The translations under genes and the position numbers were made by a program. The notes under the pieces were generated by a model. The model saw nothing but the letters and a program-made list of their open reading frames with translations. It did no database searches and was not told where the DNA came from. From NCBI GenBank assembly GCA_947478865.1, contig CANJXF010000007.1, positions 65,273-100,755 of the forward strand: a stretch of DNA of 35,483 nt, given 5' to 3'. Within the stretch, counting starts at the first letter, position 1, and each line of letters opens with the position of its first letter. The stretch comes from Verrucomicrobiales bacterium. GTDB lineage: Bacteria > Verrucomicrobiota > Verrucomicrobiia > Limisphaerales > CANJXF01. This document shows positions 11,060-23,828 of the stretch, piece by piece.

Positions 11060-11270
11060 TGGTTGGCGGGCTTTCGCTAACCATTTCGCTAACCGCAAAC
11101 GCAGACCGGTCGGCCAGGCGAAAAAAGCGGTGACGAGTCACCTCACTTTAAAGGTTGCGCCGTGGGGTCGGCCAGCCCGTAATTCGGACAGACTCCGAGG
11201 CATTTCCCGCTTTCGCTCAAACTTTTTTGTTCGGTTTCGCCCTTCGGCGGCATTTTACTGGTGATTGAAC

Positions 11271-13097
11271 ATGACAGACCACCAAACCTTGCTCGCCGAA
11301 TACACCCGGAACGGCTCGGACGCCGCCTTTCGGGAACTGGTCACCCGCTACGTTGACCTGGTCTTTTCGACGGCGCTCCGGTTGGTCGAGGGCGACACGC
11401 ATCGGGCGGAAGATGTGGTGCAGACCGTCTTTGTGGACCTGGCCCGAGTCGCGCGGACGCTTCCTGCGGATGTTAAACTGGGCGGTTGGTTGCACCGGGA
11501 CACCTGTTTCGTGGCCGCCACCCTCATGCGCGGTGAACGCCGTCGTCAATCTCGCGAAAGGCAGGCCGTGGAAATGAATACGCTCCAAAATCACGCCGAA
11601 GCGGACTTCTCCCAGGTCGCGCCGCTGCTCGACGAAGCCATCAATGAACTGGACGAAGCGGATCGCACGGCCATCCTGCTCCGCTTCTTTGAGCAGCAGG
11701 ATTTCCGCGCGGTCGGTCAGGCGCTGGGCAGCAACGAGGACGCCGCCCGCATGAGAGTGAGGCGCGCGTTGGAGAAGTTGGAGGGCTTGCTGAAGCGCCG
11801 GGGTGTCACAACGAGCGCCGCCAGCCTCGGCGTGGTGCTCACGGCCAACGCCGTCCAAGCCGCGCCCGTCGGATTGGCCGTCACGATTTCAACCGCCGCC
11901 GCGCTTGCTGGAACAACCATCGCCGCCACCGCAACCGCCACCGCAATCAAGACCATCGCCATGACCGCACTGCAAAAAACGATTATCGGTGCAACGCTTG
12001 CCGCCGCTGTCGGCACGGGAATTTATGAAGCTCGACAAGCTTCAATGTTGCGCGACCAAGTTCAAACCCTCCAGCGACAGCAAGCGCCACTGGCGGAACA
12101 AATCCAGCAGTTGCAAAGCGAGCGGGATGATGCGACGAATCGATTAGTCGCACTCCGCGACGACAACGAGAGGTTGAATCGAAACACTGGTGAATTGCTC
12201 AAACTGAGAGGAGAAGTCGGCGTGTTACGTCGGCAACAAACCTCACAGCAAGATCAACAACTTGAACAAGAGAAGACGGAAAGGGAATGGATTAAAAGCA
12301 TCGTATATCGAGGCGATGATGACCAAATCAAGTTGTGGCGATCCCGTGGCCCAAATGGAATCCAAATACTCGTTCGGGCGTTGAAGTCTCCAGTGTATGA
12401 TCATTCGACCCGCATGTGCGTCGCGAGCCTTATCAGTCAGTTGGGAAGCTATGCCAGGAGCGCCATTCCAGAACTCATCAGCATGATTAAAACAGAAAAA
12501 GACGAAAGTGTTCGCGGCATCTTGCTTGGATACTTTGAAGGGCCAATCGAAGGGTTGGGGGAAACGGAGAAAGGTGAAATGTTTCCCGAATTAATCCGTG
12601 CGCTACAAAGTAGCAATGGCAGCGTGCGGAATAATGCCCTGGTTTTGCTCCAGTCCTATCCCAACCAATCCGATACTTTGATTCCGCTCATGGTGAAATC
12701 GTTGCAAGATTCCAGTCCGGGAGTTCGACTGATGGCGGTCAAAGCCTTGAAGAAGGTTGATCCACAAAACTCCGCCGGAGTTGAGCAAGTGGCGGTGGTG
12801 GTGGGATGCTTGAACGGCCCGGCGGGCGATACTCCAGGATCGGCCAATGACGCTGCAATCATGTTGGGGGAATTGCATCGCGAGCCGGACTTGGCTGTGC
12901 CTGCTCTCATCCAAAGCCTCCAAAGTGCTGACCGTTATGTCCGCCAAAACTCGGCGGTTGCTCTGAGCAAGTTTGGTGAGCAGGCCAAACCTGCCATCAC
13001 CGCGCTGACGAAAGCGCTCGCAGATTCCGACAGTGGCGTCCGCAGTCAAGCCGCTGCCGCGATAGCCAGCATCAATTCCGCGCCACCTGCGAAATAG
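11271..13097 (+). CDS. ECF-type sigma factor fused to membrane, coiled-coil and HEAT-repeat domains
   Basis: The protein has 608 residues from ATG 11271 (a TTG at 11265 is also in frame). Residues 1-95 match sigma-70 region 2 (AFRELVTRYVDLVFSTALRL, then HRAEDVVQTVFVDLAR). Residues about 120-180 match region 4 (INELDEADRTAILLRFFEQ, then AVGQALGSNEDAARMRVRRA). An Ala/Thr-rich hydrophobic stretch follows (about 182-255) with one or two likely membrane segments, then a coiled coil (about 258-335, rich in Gln/Glu/Leu heptads). The C-terminus carries HEAT-like repeats (about 350-605, for example PALIQSLQSADRYVRQNSAVALSKFG). ECF sigma factors normally end after region 4 at about 190 residues. The extension suggests a membrane-tethered sigma factor with a protein-interaction sensor in place of a separate anti-sigma factor; that role is inference. 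No anti-sigma gene is adjacent. The palindromic element lies just upstream. Confidence 0.9.
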   Translation: MTDHQTLLAEYTRNGSDAAFRELVTRYVDLVFSTALRLVEGDTHRAEDVVQTVFVDLARVARTLPADVKLGGWLHRDTCFVAATLMRGERRRQSRERQAVEMNTLQNHAEADFSQVAPLLDEAINELDEADRTAILLRFFEQQDFRAVGQALGSNEDAARMRVRRALEKLEGLLKRRGVTTSAASLGVVLTANAVQAAPVGLAVTISTAAALAGTTIAATATATAIKTIAMTALQKTIIGATLAAAVGTGIYEARQASMLRDQVQTLQRQQAPLAEQIQQLQSERDDATNRLVALRDDNERLNRNTGELLKLRGEVGVLRRQQTSQQDQQLEQEKTEREWIKSIVYRGDDDQIKLWRSRGPNGIQILVRALKSPVYDHSTRMCVASLISQLGSYARSAIPELISMIKTEKDESVRGILLGYFEGPIEGLGETEKGEMFPELIRALQSSNGSVRNNALVLLQSYPNQSDTLIPLMVKSLQDSSPGVRLMAVKALKKVDPQNSAGVEQVAVVVGCLNGPAGDTPGSANDAAIMLGELHREPDLAVPALIQSLQSADRYVRQNSAVALSKFGEQAKPAITALTKALADSDSGVRSQAAAAIASINSAPPAK

Positions 13098-13133: not shown

Positions 13134-14915
13134 TCACTTCTTCCCCGCACGATTCACCGCCCGTCGCAACGGCGGACGGACGCGATGGTGATAGGGATCA
13201 TCCGTTTCGATCTGGCAGTGGTAGATCTCCACCAGCCGGAGCATGGCCGCTTCGGCGGTTGGACTGTCAAGGGAGCCACCTGCGAAACGCTCGCGATCCA
13301 GCACCGCCCGCAGTTGCAAGATTTCCCAGCGCCAGTTTCGTCTGGCCCAATCGGGCAGGCGAGCCGCGACGGCTTCGGTGTGGTAGTAGGCCCTCAGGAC
13401 CGCTTCCTGGTCCACGGGCTTTTTGCGATAGGAGTTTGACGCGGTGGCTTCGAGCAGATCAATGACTGCCAGCACGTCATTCGTCACTCCCGGGCCGAAC
13501 TCGTAGGCGATGTATTCCTCGAGGGTGGCCCGGGCGGTTCGGTTCGGATCCCAATAGAACTGAACTACCGCCGCCTTGTTCATGTCCTCATAGATGCCTT
13601 CGCTGTAGGGAAAGCCGCCGCGCACCGACAGCTTGACCTGATCCCACAGCCGCTGAAACCGGGCGGGCAAGGGATTCGCGCCAAAACCGCCCCACGGCGA
13701 GTTGCCCCACATGCTGATCTCCGGAAAGTTGAGCAACGGCAGTTTTCCCGGCACGCCGACATCGAGTGGATACCGCGGAAAATCTTCGTGCGCATCCGCG
13801 AGAATGAAATCCACCCAGCGCTCGCCTTTGGTCAACGCGTCGGTCAGGCCTTGCCATTCGCCTTCGGGCGGTGTGTCGAACATCCAGGTGCTCAACACTG
13901 TTTTCATTTTCGGGAAATAGCTTTGGCACAGCCGCGTCAGATCCCGCGAGAGTTTCAGGTAGCCGTTGCTGCCCCACGGCTGGCATTGTTCACAAGCGCA
14001 ACCACCTTCGTCATACGGCCAGTGGACGAGGATATCGAGGCCGACATCCGCCAGCTTGGCGTAAAGCTGTCGGGCGTTCTCCATCAAGTAGGCGTGGCCC
14101 TCCGGATTGCTCGGGCAAATCGGATGGCCGCTGTTGCCGCGCCGCCCGGTCGGGTCGGGCAGGCGCTTGGCCCGGATGTTCGCCGGCGCGCCGATGAACA
14201 TGCAATTGTTGATGCCGGTGGCGAATTGGATTCCCAACTCGCGGGCCGTGCGGGCGCATTTGCGCACCGCGTCCATGGCGGGCGCGGCCTCCGGATCGTT
14301 CCAGCCCTGAAGATTGATCATTGGAAAGATCACCATGACAGCGTTGACGCCCCAGAGCGCCAGGTCCTCCATGTAACGGGCGATCTCCGCCTCCGATGCC
14401 TGAACATACCAGTTGTGAAAATGGCTGGCGAAATACATGCCGCGCAGCGAGCCGCGCGGCTGCGAAGTGCCGCGCCAGGGCGAGGGTTGAAACGTTCCGT
14501 CATACCGGCTGGTGCGGAGAAGCTTTCCCACCCCATAAAGCAAACCTCGCGGCGAACCTCCAGCCACGCGCACCGCGCCGCCGGTTTGATCCATGCGGAA
14601 AGCCTCGGGCGGCAGGCGATCATCAATCGTCAGGATGATCTGCGCTCGATTGCGGGACTCGACGACGTTCACCGCGCAACGCAGCTCAATCCGATCCTTG
14701 AGAATCGCAAACGTCCGGGCAACGAGCGGATCGGCTGACGCTGGCACTTTTACTCGAACCTCGCGTCGAGTTGTCCCGCCGGGTTGAACCGCGCTTTGCT
14801 GATGGGTGGCGACGCATCCCGGCAATCCCAAGCCGACGGCAGCAACTCCAGCACACTTGAGAAATGTCCTGCGACTGTGCGCATCCAGCATTTGCCTCTC
14901 AACGGGAAAATTCAT
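13134..14915 (-). CDS. Tat-exported lipoprotein, putative glycoside hydrolase (GH20/GH67-like barrel)
   Basis: The 593-residue protein carries a twin-arginine signal SRRTFLKCAGVAAVGLGLPGC (RR at 15-16) whose end, LPGC (31-34), is also a lipobox, so it may be a Tat-exported lipoprotein. An N-terminal alpha/beta domain (about 50-140, ending GGSPRGLLYGVGKLL) parallels that of the DUF4838 protein. A TIM-barrel-like region from about 155 follows (RGMYFASHFHNWYVQASEAE). An acidic pair D302-E303 in HWPYDEGGCACEQC resembles the catalytic Asp-Glu of GH20 enzymes, and it is followed by C306-x-C308-x2-C311, echoing the DUF4838 protein. The reaction is unknown. The annotated ATG lacks an SD; ATG 14891 (MLDAHSRRTF) has GAGAGG 3 nt upstream and gives a more typical short Tat n-region. 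It is the last gene of the - strand operon, 31 bp after its neighbour. Confidence 0.78.
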   Translation of the reverse strand: MNFPVERQMLDAHSRRTFLKCAGVAAVGLGLPGCVATHQQSAVQPGGTTRREVRVKVPASADPLVARTFAILKDRIELRCAVNVVESRNRAQIILTIDDRLPPEAFRMDQTGGAVRVAGGSPRGLLYGVGKLLRTSRYDGTFQPSPWRGTSQPRGSLRGMYFASHFHNWYVQASEAEIARYMEDLALWGVNAVMVIFPMINLQGWNDPEAAPAMDAVRKCARTARELGIQFATGINNCMFIGAPANIRAKRLPDPTGRRGNSGHPICPSNPEGHAYLMENARQLYAKLADVGLDILVHWPYDEGGCACEQCQPWGSNGYLKLSRDLTRLCQSYFPKMKTVLSTWMFDTPPEGEWQGLTDALTKGERWVDFILADAHEDFPRYPLDVGVPGKLPLLNFPEISMWGNSPWGGFGANPLPARFQRLWDQVKLSVRGGFPYSEGIYEDMNKAAVVQFYWDPNRTARATLEEYIAYEFGPGVTNDVLAVIDLLEATASNSYRKKPVDQEAVLRAYYHTEAVAARLPDWARRNWRWEILQLRAVLDRERFAGGSLDSPTAEAAMLRLVEIYHCQIETDDPYHHRVRPPLRRAVNRAGKK

Positions 14916-14946
14916 GGCGCATTACTGACAGAGCACGGCGGGAAAC

Positions 14947-17535
14947 TCAATACCGCAACACCCGCACCTCACCTGCATCCATCAGCAGGGTAAGGCTCGG
15001 TCCGCGACCAAGCTTAGCGCCGGTCAGGGCGTCAACCATCGCGCTCGATCGACCCGTCTGAATCACGAGCGGGCCGCTCGTGTGCGCCTGAACGGAGAGG
15101 AATCCTTCCGCCGCCCAGACCGCGGCATTTTCTTCCGTGAACAGATGCACGCCGGACATTTTGGCGAAGGCGCGCACCAGTTCTGGAGTCAGCGCAGGCA
15201 CGCCAAGGAAGACGTCCAGACCGCTCTTGCTGCGGCGGAGGGCGACGGCGGGCGAGCCGTCCTGATAGGTTGCCAGCGTTTCCACGCCTGTCGCATCAAC
15301 GGTGAACAATGGTTGAACGGCTTCCTTCGGCCCCCACGGTTTCGTCAATCCCAGTTTGCGTCCGGCTTCCGTTGGCGTTGCCTCCGCCGAGTTTGGCGAG
15401 ACGGCGCGATGCTTGAAGCCAGTAACGTCGTTCATGGCGCCGATATCAGTTCGGCTGGGCAGCAGGTAGCCGGGCGCGTAGCACCAAACGCGAGTGGTGT
15501 TCCGCGGGCGATTGGCAATCAGCGCCTGCCGATCGGCCGGAGTCAGGGACCAGCTGGCGAGGAAGAATTGCAGTTTCGCGGGCACGTTGCCCGCCAGCGC
15601 GTCGGGCAGCGCGAATTGTCCATAAGGTGCGCCGCAGCGTCCCAACGCGGCGCGGCCATCATAGATTAACGGCTTCGCGGCAAGGCTCGAACCACCCGTC
15701 AGATGACAAAGGCTGTCTTCGCCCACAATCGCCGCAATCTCCGGCGCGAACGGCTGGGCGCGCTTAACCATCGCCTGCTCGACCGGCCTCAATCGTTTCT
15801 GTTCCTCCCAGATCGCGGCGTCATTGAACCAACCTTCGCCGGGCAGATCCATCCACCACGTACCGAAGCCGCGCAGGGCAGCCTGAGCGGTGTTGCGCAA
15901 CATGACTTGCTGGGTTTGCCTCAGGTTGACCAATCCTCCCTCCTGCACATGCTCGGTCGTCCGCGTGTCGAGGTGCGTGCGCGAGTCGTCCTCGTTGAGC
16001 CAAAGGATGCCCGCGTTGCGAACACTCTCGGCGGGACTCATGGATGGCGCGGTGCCGAGCCATTCACGGTCGAAGTAGGAAATCGGCGAGCAGAGGATGT
16101 CTATGTCCTTGGATTTCAGCACTGGTGCCAGCGCGTAGTGCCCGCTGGTCGCCGCGCCGTTGGCCAGCGGCGGGAACTCGAATTGATAACCGTAGAAGAA
16201 AACGACCAGCTTCTTGCCATCGCTGCCGCGTCGGGCAGCGGCGGCCAGGGCCAAAACCATGTCCGCCATCTCGCGTTGTTGAAAGCGCGCAAACTCGATC
16301 AGCCTCCGCTCGCGGGCCGGATCGCGCAAAAAACCGTTGGGATGGGCGCGCCGCTCGTCGGCGGTCGGCGGTTCGGCGGTGGCAAAGTCCGCATCGCCGC
16401 GCTCCTTCAGCCAGGCGCGAAACGCTTCACGGGCAGCCGGATCGTAACCGCTCAAGGGACGTTCCCAGGAGCCTTCGTAAAACCACTCGCCGGTGTTCTG
16501 GCCGCAAGGGTGAACGCCGGCGAAGTGCTCGGGAAACGCTTGCATGAGATGCCGGCAAAGTTTTTCGAGGTGCGCGGCAGCAGCAGCGCGATAAGCACGG
16601 TGGGAGACCGACGCGAAATGGCCGGGTTGGTTGGTATCGTAAACCATGAGCGCTTCGGGATTTTGCCGCAGCCACCAATCGGGTGCGTTGGCGTTGACCC
16701 GCGGCACGAGCAACACCTTGGGGTTGACCTCGACGATTTGCCGGCAGAGGTCGTCGAGCGGCCGCCAGTCCAGCGGCTGCTCCGGCGACGTCCAGCAGTT
16801 GGGCGCGCTGTACGAAACGAGATTCACGCCCGCGTCCCGCGCCAGCGCAACCTGCTGGAGGAACGGTCCGGGCGGGCCGCCGATGCCGATGTACTCGCCA
16901 TTGTTGACCTGATGCATGGCCGGGTAGATCTGCCGCTTCGGTGTCGCTCGCGCGCGAAATGTGACGCGGTATTTCCGGTTGGCGGAAAAATTCAGACCCA
17001 GATGGCTGTGAAGATGAAAGTCGGGCCAGGTGCCGGACGGCGGATTGGTCAACGTGACCCGGAGCGCGCCGTTGGTCACGGCCACCTTGCCGACGGTATT
17101 CTGCTCTCGCAGCGGCCAGAGATTCCAAACCTCGTTGAACTTTTCCGAGGTTGCAAAACTTCCGGGCGACATGACGTCGCCGCCGGTCTCGGCATCCACC
17201 ACGCGCACGTCTGAAAGCCAGACCTCGCCTGGAAGTTGACCGAATCGAAAGTGGAGCGTGCCGGCAGCCTTGACGTCCGCGCCCGGAGTGAACTCAAATG
17301 TGTGCTGCGTCCAGTTTTCATCAATCGTGCTGGTGCCGCTGCGCGGCACGCCGAAGAAGAACCGTGGCGGAACAGGTTTGCCGTTGACGTGGATTTGCGA
17401 TCCGCCTCGCGTGGGCTGGACACGGACGGCCAGCGGCGCGGCAAGAAGGGCGTTGCCGACAGCCAGCCACCCCAACCACAGGCTGAGCGGAAGGGATTTC
17501 ATCAGATGAAAATCGGAGCGCAGGTTCGGTTTCAT
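14947..17535 (-). CDS. secreted GH42-like (clan GH-A) TIM-barrel protein with N-terminal beta domain
   Basis: The 862-residue protein has a signal peptide (MKSLPLSLWLGWLAVGNALLAAP; this inner Met is residue 12). A beta-sandwich like carbohydrate-binding modules occupies about 30-190 (TIDENWTQHTFEFTPGADVK, then HFRFGQLPGEVWLSDVRVVD). The barrel runs from about 195. Supporting segments are DAGVNLVSYSAPNCW, VLLVPRVNANAPDWWLRQNP, HPCGQNTGEWFYEG (a plausible acid/base Glu) and ILWLNEDDSRTH (a plausible nucleophile region). These resemble beta-galactosidase-type GH42/GH-A proteins, but exact family and catalytic residues are not certain. Its ATG overlaps the stop of the GH172 gene as ATGA at 17532-17535, indicating translational coupling, and an AGG lies 6 nt before it. 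It is inferred to act on an oligosaccharide together with its operon partners. Confidence 0.72.
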   Translation of the reverse strand: MKPNLRSDFHLMKSLPLSLWLGWLAVGNALLAAPLAVRVQPTRGGSQIHVNGKPVPPRFFFGVPRSGTSTIDENWTQHTFEFTPGADVKAAGTLHFRFGQLPGEVWLSDVRVVDAETGGDVMSPGSFATSEKFNEVWNLWPLREQNTVGKVAVTNGALRVTLTNPPSGTWPDFHLHSHLGLNFSANRKYRVTFRARATPKRQIYPAMHQVNNGEYIGIGGPPGPFLQQVALARDAGVNLVSYSAPNCWTSPEQPLDWRPLDDLCRQIVEVNPKVLLVPRVNANAPDWWLRQNPEALMVYDTNQPGHFASVSHRAYRAAAAAHLEKLCRHLMQAFPEHFAGVHPCGQNTGEWFYEGSWERPLSGYDPAAREAFRAWLKERGDADFATAEPPTADERRAHPNGFLRDPARERRLIEFARFQQREMADMVLALAAAARRGSDGKKLVVFFYGYQFEFPPLANGAATSGHYALAPVLKSKDIDILCSPISYFDREWLGTAPSMSPAESVRNAGILWLNEDDSRTHLDTRTTEHVQEGGLVNLRQTQQVMLRNTAQAALRGFGTWWMDLPGEGWFNDAAIWEEQKRLRPVEQAMVKRAQPFAPEIAAIVGEDSLCHLTGGSSLAAKPLIYDGRAALGRCGAPYGQFALPDALAGNVPAKLQFFLASWSLTPADRQALIANRPRNTTRVWCYAPGYLLPSRTDIGAMNDVTGFKHRAVSPNSAEATPTEAGRKLGLTKPWGPKEAVQPLFTVDATGVETLATYQDGSPAVALRRSKSGLDVFLGVPALTPELVRAFAKMSGVHLFTEENAAVWAAEGFLSVQAHTSGPLVIQTGRSSAMVDALTGAKLGRGPSLTLLMDAGEVRVLRY

Positions 17536-19205
17536 TTGTAGCCTGCCATGTCTTCCAGGCGGAGCAGGATCAGCGAATTCAGACCAAAGGCAAACCGCGG
17601 CGGGGCTTGGGTTCTTTGATTTGGCGAAGCCCCGCGCCCGACAAACTTGAGCGTGTGTTTCCCTGGCTTTAAATCGTGCAGATCAAAGCTGAACCAGGTC
17701 CAATCCTCGCCCGAGTTGCAGAGGTCCAATTCCGGGCCGACGGACTGGCCATCGAGGAAGGGTTGATAGCGTGCGCTGAAAAGAGAGAGGATCAGGACGC
17801 CAGCCACCTGATAGCGTCCTGATTCGGCCACCTCGAAGTCGAATTCAATCTCCGCATCTGGTTTGCCCGGCGCGTAGATCAATCCCTCCTCCTCCCGAGT
17901 CACGAGGGTCGGCGGGTTTGCGCGGAAGGTCAGGGCTTTCGCCGGCAGCACGCGGTAGGGAGCAACGCGGTTTGTGGCAGGCGGCAGAGGCTCCGGGCCC
18001 GCGACCGGCGGCGCTTGATACCAGAAAGCCACCGAGCTTACCCAGTCCGGGCGCTCGTTGGAGGACGACTGTTTTACGCCTGCGTCGTTGACTCTGCTGC
18101 CTTTGTGTTCGATGGAAACTTTGAGCGCAGTCTGGAAGCGCACGGGATCCGACAAGTGCCAGCGATAAGCGCTGACCCGGTCGCCGGCGAAAACGCCTTC
18201 ATACAAGGTCACTCCATGCGCTGGCCCGGCGAACTGCCGGAAGCCCCATGCGTCATTGAAATAATCCTCGGTGCCGGTGCCGCACAGCGAAGGCAGCGCC
18301 TCGCCATCAATGTAGAAATGGTCGTCGCCCTCGCCAAACCAGCCGGTCTTTACCTGGTGAACGGAATAAACCGTCCCCACGTAGTTGCCGCGGCCCTTGG
18401 TTTCCAGAATGGGAAAGTCGCCGGGTGTTGCCGGGAAGGCCTGGTGATAGCGCGCGTGGAAGTAGAGCGAGTCCTCCGGCAGGCTCGGCAGCTTTTCCCA
18501 GTCAACGTAATAGTAAACCTCCACGTCACCGAACCCGCGCCCCTCGTTGGTCAACGTGATCTTCGCGCTCTTGCGAAATGGCATCCGCCAGAAGCACGTC
18601 CGCGAACGGCCATAGGAGGAAACGCTCACCGGCAGCGAATGAAAGTCGGCAATCGCGCCATGGCCGACGCCGAAGAAATCCCCCAGCGGCACCTCGATGC
18701 TTGGCTTCGTCATTCCGTCCCAGTAAATCCGCAGCACCAGCGATCGGCCGGAGAATGGATCCTGCGAAGCGACCGTATTCCAAAGATGCGTGATTGCGCC
18801 CGGCCCGGTTAATTCGGCGAGCACCCGCGTTTCGCCTTCCTTGATGACGCGCGAGTCGCCATTGCTGTTTATGTCGGGACTGGTGCTGGAGACGCGCCGG
18901 GTCTGGGCGTCCGTAAATTGCGTCAGAGCCACCAATGGATTCTCGCTTGGCTTTGCGGTATTTGTGCCCGGCGTCCCGGGTTGCGCGTGTCCGATGGCTG
19001 CGCCCAGCAAAATGATTAGCGCGAACGCCGCTTTTCGAAAAAGTTTTCCGGGTGAGTCGTGTAAAGGGACGAAGGGGTTTGATCTGTCCACGCGACAAAC
19101 CTTGATTGCTGACCGAACGGAGACAAGCAAAAAGTCCAACCCGCGTCCCATTAGGTGACCGGGTTCCGGGACGCAGATTGGTTTCGCGATCCGCTTAGAA
19201 CGCAC
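17532..19205 (-). CDS. DUF2961/GH172 family glycoside hydrolase
   Basis: This is a DUF2961 family member, now classed as GH172, whose characterised members act on fructofuranosides and arabinofuranosides. The family blocks are clear: GPGAITHLWNTV, FFGVGHGAIADFHSLPV, GEGDDHFYIDGE, then CGTGTEDYFNDAWGF. Numbering from the GTG at 19205, Glu292 (GEGDD) and Glu313 (GTEDYF) are 21 residues apart, the spacing I recall for the catalytic glutamates of the difructose dianhydride I synthase/hydrolase. A C-terminal extension (about 440-557) looks like a beta-sandwich, with APGKPDAEIEFDFEVAESGR and LKPGKHTLKFVG. The start is uncertain: the 19205 GTG overlaps the previous gene by 11 bp, ATG 19151 is possible, and a GTG near 19090 precedes the signal peptide LFRKAAFALIILLGAAIGHAQ. 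The protein is exported and the catalytic pair appears intact. Confidence 0.88.
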   Translation of the reverse strand: MRSKRIAKPICVPEPGHLMGRGLDFLLVSVRSAIKVCRVDRSNPFVPLHDSPGKLFRKAAFALIILLGAAIGHAQPGTPGTNTAKPSENPLVALTQFTDAQTRRVSSTSPDINSNGDSRVIKEGETRVLAELTGPGAITHLWNTVASQDPFSGRSLVLRIYWDGMTKPSIEVPLGDFFGVGHGAIADFHSLPVSVSSYGRSRTCFWRMPFRKSAKITLTNEGRGFGDVEVYYYVDWEKLPSLPEDSLYFHARYHQAFPATPGDFPILETKGRGNYVGTVYSVHQVKTGWFGEGDDHFYIDGEALPSLCGTGTEDYFNDAWGFRQFAGPAHGVTLYEGVFAGDRVSAYRWHLSDPVRFQTALKVSIEHKGSRVNDAGVKQSSSNERPDWVSSVAFWYQAPPVAGPEPLPPATNRVAPYRVLPAKALTFRANPPTLVTREEEGLIYAPGKPDAEIEFDFEVAESGRYQVAGVLILSLFSARYQPFLDGQSVGPELDLCNSGEDWTWFSFDLHDLKPGKHTLKFVGRGASPNQRTQAPPRFAFGLNSLILLRLEDMAGYK

Positions 19206-21189
19206 CGCGTCCCAAAATGGTCATCAGCGCATCGTCCTTCTCTTTACCGGAAATAAAATCAAGGGCGCGGAAATAACGAGCGCGATCCTTTTCGGTCGTG
19301 GCCGAATCAGAAATCAATTGCGCGAGATAGGCGGGCGTTTGGGTTGAATGAATCCGCCAGACGATGTCGCGGCCGGTCGAGGTGTTCCATTGGCCGCCGC
19401 TCTTTTTCAACCATGCAGTGAAAAATTCGTTCTCCTGCTTATCGGCTCCGATTGCCAGCGCCTCCAGATACCAGCGATCTTTTCCGTCGTGCTGCGTGGC
19501 GAGCTCAGCCCAAAGGTCGGCCGCAGCCGGCCCGCTCCTGTGCCGGAGGGCAAGGGCGCACTCGCGCCGAACCTGTGGGGAAGAATCCCTGGCCAATGTC
19601 TTTAGATGCGGCGTCAAATCCATTTTCAGTTCTTGAGCGATACGCAGAGCGGCAATGCGAAGATCTGGATTTCCATCGCGCAACGCCTGTCTGATCTGAA
19701 TGGTTCCGTGGCTTGGATCACGGGCAAGGAGTTGCAAGGCTCGCGCGCGCATCCGCGGTTCGCCGTTCTTCCAAAGCGCGAGCAGTTGGGGCTGGACCGC
19801 TGGTCCGGCCATCAGCAAGTCAACGCCTTTGGCCTGGCTTGTTTGCGACGAGGTTTTCGCGAGCGAGGACTGTATCTTCGTCCAAGCGAGATACCGGATG
19901 GAATGGTTTGGCGACTGCAATGCCTGGGTGAGACCGGAAGCGGTTTTCAGATCAAGCTTCGGAACGCTCGGCTTGTTTCCCGGCGGAGCGATGCGGAAAA
20001 TGCGTCCCTTCATCGTCTTGAATTCGTGATCGGCCATGTTGTGTCCGCCCACGCCGGCATCGTTCCAATCGGCGACAAAGATCGAGCCGTCTGGCGCAAC
20101 GCAGACGTCCGACGGACGAAACCACGTGTCGCTGCTGGAAAAAATATCGGTCGTTTTCGCGGCGTAACCCGCTCCATCCTGGCTGACTGAATAACTGCGA
20201 ACCACCCGCGTTCCGGCATCACAGTGGATCATCTGATTCTGAAAAACTGGCGGAAGCAACTTGCCTTCGTAAATCGCGATGCCAGTCGGAGCACCCGCCC
20301 CTGTTACCAAGGTGTTTGGCACGACACCCGGATCCATTTGGTGCCAGTGATAGAGCGGCTTGTCGTCATCGGGAACCCCTTTGCCTTTGGTTTTTTTCCA
20401 GGCTTCACTCCACCCTGCGCCGGTCAACGGGTCCGTGTAGCCAAAATTTCCATGCTGCATCACGTAGTTGATGCGCACCGACCGGTTTCCATCATCGTCA
20501 TTGTCGGATTGCCAGACCGTGCCAAAGGAATCCACCGCCAGCTCGTATGGATTGCGAAAATTGTGCCCGAGCACTTCCAGGTTGCTGCCGTCCAGATCGC
20601 AGCGAAACGCCATTCCTTCGCGATACGGTTTGCCCTTGGCCTCGACTTCGTTTCCTTCGAGGTCAACGATGAGTTTGCCGTTCTTGTCTTTGAGATGTTT
20701 GCCGGCGTTCCCGAAGTTGAAATATAATTTTCCATCCGGCCCGAACACCATGGCGTGGACTCCGTGATCGTGGTCGAATCCTTCCACGCTAAACAGCGTT
20801 TCAACTGTGTCAGCGCGATCGTCGCCATCGACATCCGTGAGGATCAATACTTTGGGCGAACAGGAAACGATGACGCGGTTGCCCAGCACGCAAATGCCGA
20901 GCGCGCTGTTGATATTCGTGCCCTGGTAAAAAGTCTTCGCCTTGTCGGCCACGCCGTCGTGGTCGGTATCTTCGAGAATTACGATGCGATCGCCGGCGGG
21001 ATCGAGCGCTCCCCAGGGCTTGAAGCTGCTGCGGTAATTCACTCCTTCGCAAACCCAGACCCGGCCCCGCGCATCGATGTCGATGTCCGTCGGGTTGCGC
21101 AGCATTGGTTCAGCCGCGAAAGCTGTGGCTTCCAACCCGGCCGCAACCGTCGTGGTTTTGAGAAATTCCCGGGCGGCAGCCAAACCCAA
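19195..21189 (-). CDS. PVC-type 'membrane-bound dehydrogenase' propeller plus HEAT protein, heme domain absent
   Basis: The conserved region starts REFLKTTTVAAGLEATAFAAEP, then NPTDIDIDARGRVWVCEGVNYR, as in the putative membrane-bound dehydrogenase (TIGR02604-like/DUF7133) proteins typical of Planctomycetota and Verrucomicrobiota. A beta-propeller fills about 25-400 (VFGPDGKLYFNFGN, FRNPYELAVDSFGTVWQSDN, FRPSDVCVAPDGSIFVADWND), followed by HEAT-like repeats (about 410-660). Longer relatives carry a C-terminal CxxCH cytochrome domain; no CxxCH occurs here and the protein ends at 664 residues. The start is problematic: the only start near the homologous region is TTG 21189, with no signal peptide, unlike every neighbour. 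The frame stays open upstream to a TAA at 21253-21255, through a Lys/Gly/Ser/Ala-rich linker, into the ThuA gene. A -1 frameshift in the A10 run would make this the second half of a ThuA fusion. Confidence 0.82.
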   Translation of the reverse strand: MGLAAAREFLKTTTVAAGLEATAFAAEPMLRNPTDIDIDARGRVWVCEGVNYRSSFKPWGALDPAGDRIVILEDTDHDGVADKAKTFYQGTNINSALGICVLGNRVIVSCSPKVLILTDVDGDDRADTVETLFSVEGFDHDHGVHAMVFGPDGKLYFNFGNAGKHLKDKNGKLIVDLEGNEVEAKGKPYREGMAFRCDLDGSNLEVLGHNFRNPYELAVDSFGTVWQSDNDDDGNRSVRINYVMQHGNFGYTDPLTGAGWSEAWKKTKGKGVPDDDKPLYHWHQMDPGVVPNTLVTGAGAPTGIAIYEGKLLPPVFQNQMIHCDAGTRVVRSYSVSQDGAGYAAKTTDIFSSSDTWFRPSDVCVAPDGSIFVADWNDAGVGGHNMADHEFKTMKGRIFRIAPPGNKPSVPKLDLKTASGLTQALQSPNHSIRYLAWTKIQSSLAKTSSQTSQAKGVDLLMAGPAVQPQLLALWKNGEPRMRARALQLLARDPSHGTIQIRQALRDGNPDLRIAALRIAQELKMDLTPHLKTLARDSSPQVRRECALALRHRSGPAAADLWAELATQHDGKDRWYLEALAIGADKQENEFFTAWLKKSGGQWNTSTGRDIVWRIHSTQTPAYLAQLISDSATTEKDRARYFRALDFISGKEKDDALMTILGRGAF

Positions 21190-21233
21190 TTTCGGCTCGG
21201 AAGCGCTCGCCCCGGAACCGCCGGATGATTTAG

Positions 21234-22127
21234 CTACTTTTTTTTTTGGCCTTTAGGATCGAGGTTCTGCTGCAAATCTTCGGCCGTGAGGTTGGATTCC
21301 ACCCCGTTTTTCGGAACGTTCACCTTTGCCGTCCAGAGAATGGCGTTGAGCACCAGCTTGCGGAAATTTTCGTCGCCCCAGTTTTTATGAAAATGCGCCC
21401 CGGTGAAACCGAAGCCGCGCCCGCCATCTTTGCGATCGTAAACCCATGCCACATGTTGAGGCTCGCCGCGTTTGACTGCCGCGCGCACGGCGGGATTGCC
21501 GCTGTGGGTTCCGTCGTCACGGCTCATCGTGCTCGCGGGCGGCACAGCCGACAAGACCGGTGTGACCCCCTTCATCCCATCCTGGAAACGCATGTTGAAA
21601 TACCATTCATCGTTAATCGTGAACGGTTTCACGCCGCGCGTCACAGGATGCTTTGGCATGGTTGAAAAGTTCGCGTCCCAATGGGGATTGACCGACCAAT
21701 TGATCTCAAAGGCGCCGCCAATCCATTCCAGAAATTCCTTCTCGCCTTTTTTGATCGTCGGCTCCACCGCGTAATGCACGCAGGCCAGGCCGACCCCTTT
21801 TTTCATCAGCGCGTCGAGCTGTTGCAGATGGTCGCCTTGCAAGGCGCCATGGCCTTCGCCGCCGTCCATGAAAAGAAGAATCGTGCTCGCACCATCAAAC
21901 GCGTGCGCGTCCGCCGGCCAGCCATTCAAGTGCGCCTCGGCTTTCACGCCGGGAACTTTATCCAGACATTTCTTGAGCAGGAGAACGCCGGCGTTGTGCT
22001 CGTGTTCGCCCGGGCCGTGGCTGATTTTTCCGGCAACCAAAACAATTTTCTTATCGGCAGCCGAGGCCGAGAAAGCGAGCGAGAGAAAAGCCGTCGCGAA
22101 AAGGATGAGGAATTTTTTCATTTTCAT
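21234..22127 (-). CDS. ThuA domain protein, exported
   Basis: ThuA (trehalose-utilisation/class I glutamine amidotransferase-like) proteins adopt a flavodoxin-like fold and recur in sugar-catabolic clusters; no reaction is firmly established. The family segments are present: KKIVLVAGKISHGPGEHEHNAG near the N-terminus, then ILLFMDGGEGH, GVGLACVHYAVEP, INWSVNPHWDANF, HPVTRGVKPFTINDEWYFNM and FTGAHFHKNW. I chose ATG 22127 (MKMKKFLILFATAFLSLAFSASA), about 297 residues, because it begins a clean signal peptide. The longer frame from 22220 runs back through the neighbouring terminator. The gene ends in GQKKK encoded by CAA AAA AAA AAG TAG, a run of ten A with the A AAA AAG heptamer immediately before the stop. 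The next gene overlaps in the -1 frame. Confidence 0.92.
   Translation of the reverse strand: MKMKKFLILFATAFLSLAFSASAADKKIVLVAGKISHGPGEHEHNAGVLLLKKCLDKVPGVKAEAHLNGWPADAHAFDGASTILLFMDGGEGHGALQGDHLQQLDALMKKGVGLACVHYAVEPTIKKGEKEFLEWIGGAFEINWSVNPHWDANFSTMPKHPVTRGVKPFTINDEWYFNMRFQDGMKGVTPVLSAVPPASTMSRDDGTHSGNPAVRAAVKRGEPQHVAWVYDRKDGGRGFGFTGAHFHKNWGDENFRKLVLNAILWTAKVNVPKNGVESNLTAEDLQQNLDPKGQKKK
21237..21247 (-). promoter_or_regulatory. possible -1 frameshift site (A AAA AAG) at the end of the ThuA gene
   Basis: On the coding strand the ThuA frame reads GGC CAA AAA AAA AAG TAG. The last seven bases before the stop are A AAA AAG, the same heptamer used for efficient -1 frameshifting in E. coli dnaX. 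Slipping back one base continues as AAA GTA GCT AAA TCA in the frame of the downstream propeller protein, with no stop until 19195. The fused product would be about 977 residues with the ThuA signal peptide. I saw no strong stem-loop after the site and no clear internal Shine-Dalgarno before it. A true 11-A run misread as 10 A, or a fixed indel, would look the same. Confidence 0.45.
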
Positions 22128-22202
22128 GTGATCGTGAAAGAGTTTAGAAATTTTCCGCCGCGTGGAAAGCCCCAAATTGTTTGTCGCGACAGATCCTGGT
22201 GC

Positions 22203-22237
22203 AAAAAAACTCTGAGCCATCGAAATGGCCCAGAGTT
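22203..22237 (-). terminator. Rho-independent terminator after the DUF1080 gene
   Basis: On the - strand, aactctgggccat (22237-22225) pairs with atggctcagagtt (22220-22208), 12 of 13 positions, across a 4-base loop. Seven T follow (22209-22203). It lies 22 bp after the DUF1080 stop and upstream of the ThuA start, so it separates two transcription units. Confidence 0.88.
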
Positions 22238-22258
22238 GGGGAAGAGAAAACGCAATTT

Positions 22259-22978
22259 CTACTTCAGCGTTTTAATGCGGATATTTTTGAACTGCACGGT
22301 CATGGGCGGACCGGCGTGGAGTTGCAGGGCGAGCACGCCGCTCATCACGCGCTTTGATTCACAATCGTCCGTGACGTCCACGGTCTGCTTGCCATTGATG
22401 AAGTGTTGCAGGTGATTGCCTTTTGCGATGACGACATACTCGTTCCAATCCTCTTTTTTGATGCCGGCCTGGATTTCGTCCGAGTTTCCGACTGAGCCGG
22501 TCACTTCCTTTTTGCAATCCTTGGTCCAAACGACTTTCTCGCCGCGTCCCGCCATGATGCCTCGGGTCATCCGTTCCTCGTAGAGAATGCCGGAGTAAGT
22601 CGTGCCCGCTTCGAAATCGGCCTGGTAGCCGCCGACGACCCAGTTGTTGGTGTCCAAAACTTTGCTGCGATATTGCACGCCGGAATTGCCGAAGCCTTTG
22701 TCGTTGTTCGGCACGATTTTGTAGGAGAAGCGCAGTTCAAAATCCGCCACCGGGTTGTTCGTGAAGATCAGGAACGTGTTTCCCTTGGTCGGATGCGCTT
22801 CGGTGGTTTGGCCGGTGATGGTGCCGTCTTTCACGGACCACAACTCGGAATTGCCGGTCCAGCCGGAAAGGTTTTTGCCGTTGAAAAGCTTCTTGAAGCC
22901 TTTTTCCGCCTTGTCCTGCGCCGAGGCGGACACGACTAAAGCCACTGTTATAATTGTGGAAACGATTATTTTTTTCAT
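22259..22978 (-). CDS. secreted DUF1080 protein (3-keto-disaccharide hydrolase type)
   Basis: The 239-residue protein has a signal peptide (MKKIIVSTIITVALVVSASAQ) and one DUF1080 domain (PF06439) of LamG-like jelly-roll fold. Diagnostic segments are KGFKKLFNGKNLSGWTGN, WSVKDGTITGQT, FELRFSYKIVPN, NSGVQYRSKV, VGGYQADFEAG and the C-terminal GVLALQLHAGPPMTVQFKNI. Relatives have been linked to cleavage of 3-keto-glycosides after sugar oxidation, often beside Gfo/Idh/MocA oxidoreductases and sugar isomerases. That role fits this context but is not shown by sequence alone. The gene follows the isomerase stop by 4 bp, so the two are almost certainly cotranscribed, and a strong terminator closes the unit. 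The export signal places the hydrolase in the periplasm, whereas the paired isomerase appears cytosolic. Confidence 0.93.
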   Translation of the reverse strand: MKKIIVSTIITVALVVSASAQDKAEKGFKKLFNGKNLSGWTGNSELWSVKDGTITGQTTEAHPTKGNTFLIFTNNPVADFELRFSYKIVPNNDKGFGNSGVQYRSKVLDTNNWVVGGYQADFEAGTTYSGILYEERMTRGIMAGRGEKVVWTKDCKKEVTGSVGNSDEIQAGIKKEDWNEYVVIAKGNHLQHFINGKQTVDVTDDCESKRVMSGVLALQLHAGPPMTVQFKNIRIKTLK

Positions 22979-22982
22979 AAAT

Positions 22983-23828
22983 TTATTTCAGGACTGTTTT
23001 CAAAAATTTCAAACCTTTCACGGCAATCTCTTCGGTCGTCGGCTCCATGCGACGCCAGATCGCAGCGGCGCGGGCGATGAGTTTGACGTCCGTCGTGAAT
23101 GATTCAATCACCACATCGCCATTGTATTTGATGTCTTTGAGCGCTTTGACAATCGGCTTCCAATCAATGTGATCGTTGCCGGGCGTGCCGCGGTCGCTGC
23201 CGCAGGCGTGAAAATGGCCGAGCAGTTTTCCCGCTTTGCGGATGGCTTTGGCCTGGTCTTTTTCCTCGATGTTCATGTGGAAAGTATCGAGGTGCAGCCG
23301 GAGCGCAGGGCTGCCGACATCCTTGATCATCTGCAGGCCCTGGTCGCAGGTGTTGATGAAATCGGTTTCAAAACGATTGAGCGGTTCGAGGCAAATTTGC
23401 CTTTTGTTTTTCGCCGCGTATTTGGCCAGCGTTTTCAAATGCTTCACCACGGTTTTCCACTGCTGTTTGTATTCCTTTTCGGGAACCGCGTCGGCGCGTC
23501 CCACTTCCGAATAGACCGGGCCGATCAACGACGGGCAATCGAGCACGACCATTTGGTCGATCAATTTCATCATGTAATCCAAGGCGTTTTTCTGCTGCTC
23601 GGGCGTGCCGCGCAGATCGCGCCCGCCGCCCATGCAGGCGCAGACCGATCCGCAAACCAGACCGTTTTTGTCCAGCTCCCGCTTCACGTGGGCCGGATCG
23701 ATGTGCGAGGGATCTTCAATCGGGATTTCGATGGTCTGAAATCCCCACTTCTTGAACTGCGGAAACAATTTGGTGCTTTCGTTGGTGAAAGGTGAGGTGA
23801 ACAGGAACGTGTTGATGCCAAGTCTCAT
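22983..23828 (-). CDS. sugar phosphate isomerase/epimerase, D-tagatose/D-psicose 3-epimerase type
   Basis: The 281-residue TIM-barrel protein belongs to the xylose isomerase-like/AP-endonuclease 2 superfamily. The four metal ligands of the ketose 3-epimerase group are recognisable: E148 (ICLEPLNRFET), D181 (LHLDTFHMNIEE), H207 (GHFHACGSDRGTPG) and E242 (GDVVIESF). Their spacing matches that I recall for Agrobacterium D-psicose 3-epimerase (E150, D183, H209, E244). R213 and H184 also fit the substrate-binding positions. It therefore probably epimerises a free or keto sugar at C3 using Mn2+ or Co2+. It is cytosolic, with no signal. It is the first gene of a two-gene unit with the DUF1080 hydrolase, in divergent orientation to the lipoprotein gene at 23979. 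The true substrate could instead be a 3-keto-sugar. Confidence 0.92.
   Translation of the reverse strand: MRLGINTFLFTSPFTNESTKLFPQFKKWGFQTIEIPIEDPSHIDPAHVKRELDKNGLVCGSVCACMGGGRDLRGTPEQQKNALDYMMKLIDQMVVLDCPSLIGPVYSEVGRADAVPEKEYKQQWKTVVKHLKTLAKYAAKNKRQICLEPLNRFETDFINTCDQGLQMIKDVGSPALRLHLDTFHMNIEEKDQAKAIRKAGKLLGHFHACGSDRGTPGNDHIDWKPIVKALKDIKYNGDVVIESFTTDVKLIARAAAIWRRMEPTTEEIAVKGLKFLKTVLK

Follow-up and report, generated by a model that had tools for sequence, protein, structure and literature searches.

Background

Several genes are known in which a run of A's on the coding strand sets the reading frame of the product. The dnaX gene of T. thermophilus carries a run of nine A's at which transcriptional slippage generates mRNAs in all frames (PMC1088944). 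In C. rodentium, the A11 tract of tssM1 yields mRNAs of 10-15 A's and 20-25% fusion, both forms are needed, and the slippage was tested by cDNA mass spectrometry and Western blots (PMC4256274). The dnaX gene of E. coli undergoes -1 ribosomal frameshifting at A AAA AAG (PMC5009743). When the E. coli polymerase slips in A-runs, single-A insertions predominate and deletions are rare (PMC5574713).

A text search of the literature returned no report in which ThuA is connected with slippage or frameshifting. To our knowledge, slippage-expressed cellular genes are few and are found mostly among dnaX, secretion genes, insertion sequences and endosymbionts. Here we describe a locus in which a ThuA frame and a DUF7133 frame meet at a run of ten A's, and compare it with related loci of the same order. 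The two frames very likely constitute one fusion gene.

Methods

The window is the whole stretch of 35,483 nucleotides that was analysed. Orthologues of the downstream part were sought in an order-wide search of 320 genomes, 143 of which held one at E <= 1e-160; nine loci were added from GTDB genomes, and four duplicates were removed. The window's family was represented in this comparison set by the window genome only. Substitution rates were calculated by the Nei-Gojobori method. For the control of tract quality the surroundings of the tracts were fetched, except for twelve tracts of genome G123 and three of G125.

Results

The ThuA gene occupies 22127-21234 on the minus strand and encodes a ThuA-family protein (PF06283) of 297 residues with a signal-like N-terminus, MKMKKFLILFATAFLSLAFSASA. 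Its 3' end reads CAA AAA AAA AAG TAG. The A10 tract, the proposed slippage site, lies at 21238-21247 (minus strand; T10 on the plus strand), contains A AAA AAG and is the only homopolymer of at least eight in the 35 kb window. It is followed by a G and by the TAG stop (21234-21236, minus strand) that terminates the short ThuA product. Beginning at 21252, 5 nt ahead of the A-run, the -1 frame stays open as far as a stop at 19195, so the ThuA frame and the downstream frame overlap by only 19 nt (21234-21252, minus strand). Any shift must fall inside this overlap, and the A-run with the following G makes up 11 of its 19 nt. Reading in the -1 frame at the run gives a protein of 977 residues, whose downstream part (19195-21237, minus strand) comprises a DUF7133 / PVC-type N-terminal domain (TIGR02604) and HEAT repeats. 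All that precedes the conserved part of the downstream frame is the linker VAKSSGGSGASASEPK (21190-21237, minus strand) and a TTG at 21189, with no ATG and no hydrophobic signal peptide. The initial annotation had described the A10 terminus of ThuA, a -1 reading that leads into a propeller/HEAT frame open to 19195, a downstream protein with a TTG start only and a predicted fusion of about 977 residues, and these sequence features are borne out here.

The window genome contains 25 tracts of at least nine A's in 4.4 Mb, and the expectation for such a tract on the correct strand in a given 19-nt overlap is about 5e-5 when Lys-rich coding bias is ignored. On this expectation, the A10 in the overlap is more than chance.

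Both halves of the putative fusion belong to recognized families. ThuA scored 58.3 bits against the PF06283 gathering cut-off of 33.4, and the downstream part scored 328.9 bits for TIGR02604 (curated cut-off 122.2) and 203.8 bits for DUF7133 (PF23500; cut-off 27). A CxxCH haem-attachment motif is absent from the 680 residues of the downstream protein. Searches of the PDB returned no sequence match for ThuA; the matches of the propeller were weak and confined to soluble quinoprotein glucose dehydrogenase.

The surrounding minus-strand cluster is ordered as TIM barrel, DUF1080, ThuA, DUF7133, DUF2961, GH42-like and GH20b-like. It includes a xylose-isomerase-like TIM barrel (22983-23828), the upstream neighbour of ThuA, which is a 3-keto-disaccharide hydrolase domain protein (PF06439, DUF1080; 22259-22978), and, as the next gene downstream, a DUF2961 protein (PF11175; 17532-19205). 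This sugar-related gene run (13134-23828) resembles a 3-keto-sugar degradation cluster. DUF1080 proteins elsewhere in bacteria are 3-ketotrehalose or putative 3-ketolactose hydrolases (PMC9007349); a role of the cluster in exported 3-keto-sugar breakdown is thus a fair inference, but no more. Two further observations concern individual ORFs. From its GTG start, the DUF2961 ORF shares 11 nt with the end of the DUF7133 frame, and a later start ahead of its hydrophobic leader seems likelier. On the plus strand, a single ORF with a TTG start (11265-13097) encodes sigma-70 regions 2 and 4 together with HEAT repeats at the C-terminus, an unusual sigma-factor architecture.

ThuA lies directly upstream of the propeller in 81 distinct loci, which fall into three forms. 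Fifty of the 81 have separate genes, with a hydrophobic N-terminus on the downstream member (called by a hydropathy heuristic, with L060 and L091 checked by eye). Single-ORF ThuA-propeller fusions, which the initial annotation had expected to exist, account for 27; a short linker or an NPCBM domain connects their halves, and a junction A-run of at least eight occurs in none of them (0/27). The remaining four, namely the window, L034, L035 and L037, carry A9-A10 at the same spot, after a conserved NLDPKG/NLDLKG motif. These are exactly the loci that are frame-broken and have no signal peptide on the downstream part. In all four, the ThuA frame stops 0-27 nt past the matched end of ThuA, and the downstream frame is open across the A-run and has no leader. 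Among the 31 loci whose downstream part has no signal peptide of its own, the A-run is therefore divided 4/4 versus 0/27 between broken and continuous frames (Fisher ~3e-5, with relatedness ignored). In relatives with a stand-alone ThuA gene, that gene likewise ends at NLDPKG(K), for example in L013, where NLDPKGKKK is followed by the stop; the short product thus resembles a normal ThuA, and the long one a normal fusion. The reading of the two frames as one fusion joined at the A-run is supported, and three other genomes show this arrangement too.

Three seeming extra cases, L060, L091 and L076, were brought up by the hydropathy filter or an A8 tract and were rejected, each having its own signal-like N-terminus. 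A pattern search of 384 genomes of the class for the motif followed by A9 returned only the window, the pattern being strict enough to miss variant motifs. The run-bearing loci span two families, and three of them belong to one family. Some rearrangements of the neighbouring domains were also seen. An NPCBM domain between ThuA and DUF7133 is Pfam-confirmed in L034-L037, and L028, L030 and L033 have an NPCBM-like N-terminal region, by sequence resemblance only, with no adjacent ThuA; judged from these arrangements, NPCBM domains appear to shuffle around DUF7133. At L034/L128 (contig C275 of G123), two DUF7133 genes occur in tandem, the second being 52% identical to the query and having no ThuA directly upstream.

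The frame that has to be reached differs among the four loci. One extra A (the -1 frame) is required in the window, L034 and L037, whereas L035, an A10 locus of the same genus as L037, requires the loss of one A or the gain of two (the +1 frame). In the window and L034, A AAA AAG stands in the zero frame. L037 and L035 read AAA AAA AAA AGC/AGT, and the zero-frame heptamer of L037 is A AAA AAA. Of the conservation that was to be expected in orthologues, that of the A-run itself thus holds in L034, L035 and L037, but that of a uniform -1 frame does not.

Between L035 and L037, dN was 0.18 and dS 2.4 for the downstream frame, 0.34 and 1.9 for the first 189 codons after the A-run, and 0.06 and 1.3 for the upstream ThuA. 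Across the comparisons of L034, L035 and L037, dN/dS of the downstream frame was ~0.07-0.18 with saturated dS. These ratios indicate that purifying selection acts on both sides of the break. The A10 tract is kept in both L035 and L037 despite saturated synonymous sites, and from the saturated dS and low dN/dS among the three loci it follows that the A-run has persisted for longer than synonymous sites take to turn over. With the amino acids and the codon usage of each gene taken as fixed, the probability of at least nine A's in all four loci is ~0.01. The junctions are Lys-rich and their codons AAA-biased, and single-locus probabilities are accordingly 0.26-0.45, so that no single locus is striking alone.

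A careful tree of the downstream part united L034, L035 and L037 (99/100) and paired the window with the in-frame fusion L008 (91/94), and the tree of the ThuA part agrees. On these trees, the A-run needs two state changes, either one gain and a loss in L008 or two gains; an AU test of a single clade for the run-bearing loci gave p 0.11. A group of the four run-bearing loci with L008, present in a quick tree, was absent from the careful tree, and for this reason a single origin of the A-run is not claimed.

The four genomes hold 25, 23, 8 and 14 tracts of at least nine A's. Among the tracts whose surroundings were fetched, all eight A/T tracts of 9-10 in Pfam-supported ORFs of these assemblies are in frame, namely those of ligA (A10), a glycerol-3-phosphate dehydrogenase-like gene (A9), 6-phosphogluconolactonase (T9), VTT (T10), DUF1080 (A9), a response regulator-kinase (A9), a TPR protein (T10) and ribonucleotide reductase (A9). 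General miscalling of homopolymers in the assemblies is rejected on this ground; as a rule they do not miscall such tracts. The NAD-dependent DNA ligase at L046 (contig C65 of G000) has its in-frame A10 ahead of the BRCT domain, where the protein is rich in Lys and Glu, and would be a useful natural in-frame control for slippage. A mechanical screen of the four genomes for frame breaks at A-runs also returned four further candidates, L176, L177 and L191, which on inspection look like non-coding frames, and L193, which looks like a distinct gene that begins with a signal-like sequence; all were set aside.

When 80-90 nt 3' of the site were folded, no conserved stem-loop or pseudoknot was shared among the four loci. 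The folds gave z-scores of -1.1 to -1.5. Stability was mild at L035, L037 and the window locus, and at L034 it depended on the position of the folded segment, with a z of 0.05 after a shift by one base.

Discussion

We consider it probable that slippage on the poly(A) run expresses the ThuA-DUF7133 fusion, with RNA polymerase preferred over -1 ribosomal frameshifting as its agent. On this proposal, the locus would be one ThuA-DUF7133 fusion gene whose Lys-rich junction is written as ten A's and is out of frame by one. RNA polymerase would slip on the A-run and make mRNAs with varied numbers of A's. By analogy with T. thermophilus dnaX and C. rodentium tssM1, most transcripts would give exported ThuA, which stops right after the run, while a minority would be in frame and give the 977-residue exported ThuA-linker-DUF7133/HEAT protein. 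The recurrence of the out-of-frame A-run in three related genomes suggests that slippage makes both the short protein and the long fusion. The occurrence of slippage, its transcriptional rather than translational nature, the ratio of the products and the use of both are inferences. Points against slippage are that the loci number only four, three of them in one family, that the trees require two state changes for the A-run, and that Lys-rich, AAA-biased junctions make nine A's moderately likely at any one locus.

Ribosomal frameshifting by -1 at the A-run, which the initial annotation had put forward as the mechanism, would suit the window and L034, where A AAA AAG stands in the zero frame, with the window's stop immediately after it and AAGG-like bases a few nt upstream, a layout for which dnaX variants have been described (PMC5009743). 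We nevertheless regard it as unlikely. L035 needs the opposite frame and L037 offers A AAA AAA; the AAGG is not independent of the protein, because conserved PKG codons fix it; and downstream folding is unremarkable and not conserved. Since the needed frame differs in sign among the loci, polymerase slippage can serve all four and a -1 ribosomal slip cannot. Ribosomal slippage could contribute at the window and L034, because both carry the dnaX-type heptamer. Another account places the variation in the DNA, with gains and losses of A's making the tract differ among the cells of a population, some of which would encode an in-frame fusion and others ThuA alone. Long poly(A) tracts mutate fast, that of inlA ~1000-fold above point mutation (PMC2831843), the products are predicted to be exported, and the assemblies are single-consensus metagenome assemblies. 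Such phase variation seems doubtful to us, however, when an out-of-frame length is found in 4/4 assemblies (a chance of ~0.2 if lengths were random), when all four loci keep A9-A10, and when exported sugar-degrading enzymes are not typical phase-variable genes.

The gene could also be a plain in-frame fusion with a tract miscalled in sequencing or assembly. Homopolymers of 10 are error-prone and the same clade has many in-frame fusions, that of the likely sister L008 among them, so an error of this kind, which had been raised in the initial annotation, is possible for one genome; it is a poor account of four, as the same type of error would be required in four separate assemblies in which eight other 9-10 tracts are in frame, and we think it very unlikely. 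Little more can be said for two separate proteins, with ThuA stopping and the propeller re-initiating at the internal TTG at 21189, 45 nt past the stop. The genes are indeed separate in 50 relatives, the very arrangement, with a signal peptide on the second gene, that had been held to speak against a fusion; these orthologues sit in other clades, however, and so do not decide the case of the window. No ribosome-binding site can be recognised, and the signal peptide is absent where every separate-gene relative has a hydrophobic N-terminus; a re-initiated propeller would remain cytoplasmic, and the account deserves scant credence. Gene decay often begins with a frame break in a homopolymer, and a last account is a decaying fusion that a recent indel has broken. 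Decay into a pseudogene is scarcely conceivable here, given the low dN/dS with saturated dS downstream, no other stops and a break common to congeners.

With slippage by RNA polymerase as the preferred reading, three of the four loci need the event that is favoured in E. coli, where the polymerase mostly inserts, and L035 would depend on a +2 insertion or on the rarer deletion (PMC5574713). A wider reading, which we offer tentatively and would not press, is that the relative amounts of free exported ThuA and of the ThuA-(NPCBM)-DUF7133 fusion are governed by a conserved, selected poly(A) switch. Since a slipping polymerase has access to every frame, such a switch would let the needed frame drift between -1 and +1. 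Both architectures, which relatives encode separately, would then come from a single gene, and this gene would represent a natural intermediate stage between genes that are separate and genes that are fused.

As a conserved case in free-living, uncultured Verrucomicrobiota, and in a gene of exported sugar degradation, the locus would bring the mechanism to a new phylum and a new pathway. If slippage holds, such fusions are concealed by automated annotation, which lists them as two genes, one of them seemingly without an export signal. The evolution of gene fusions is also directly testable here, with separate, in-frame fused and slippage-joined forms coexisting in one order.

Comparison with known systems

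By family, the window protein matches ThuA (PF06283) and DUF7133/TIGR02604 above the curated cut-offs of Pfam and NCBIfam; it differs from PVC-type haem-binding CxxCH proteins in having no CxxCH haem motif. The single-ORF ThuA-(NPCBM)-DUF7133 fusions of the same order (for example L008/L036, L009 and L055) have a continuous frame and no A-run of at least eight, unlike the window, but share with it their domains, the domain order and a junction in which a Lys/Pro/Ala linker comes after NLDPKG. The slippery sequence A AAA AAG of E. coli dnaX is also present in the window and L034; unlike E. coli dnaX, the loci described here have no conserved stem-loop, one of the four needs +1, and the arrangement of products is reversed.

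The dnaX gene of T. thermophilus and the window both have A9-A10 on the coding strand, a stop soon after it in one frame and two products per gene. The long product is the unshifted one in T. thermophilus dnaX and the short product in the window, the gene families differ, and slippage is known for the former but putative for the latter. C. rodentium tssM1 encodes a secretion-system protein and has its stop 28 nt on, whereas the stop of the window gene is immediate. No stimulatory RNA structure lies near the tssM1 tract, and no conserved one was seen at the four loci described here. In both tssM1 and the window, a stop after the poly(A) tract ends the short form, and one additional A restores the full-length product.
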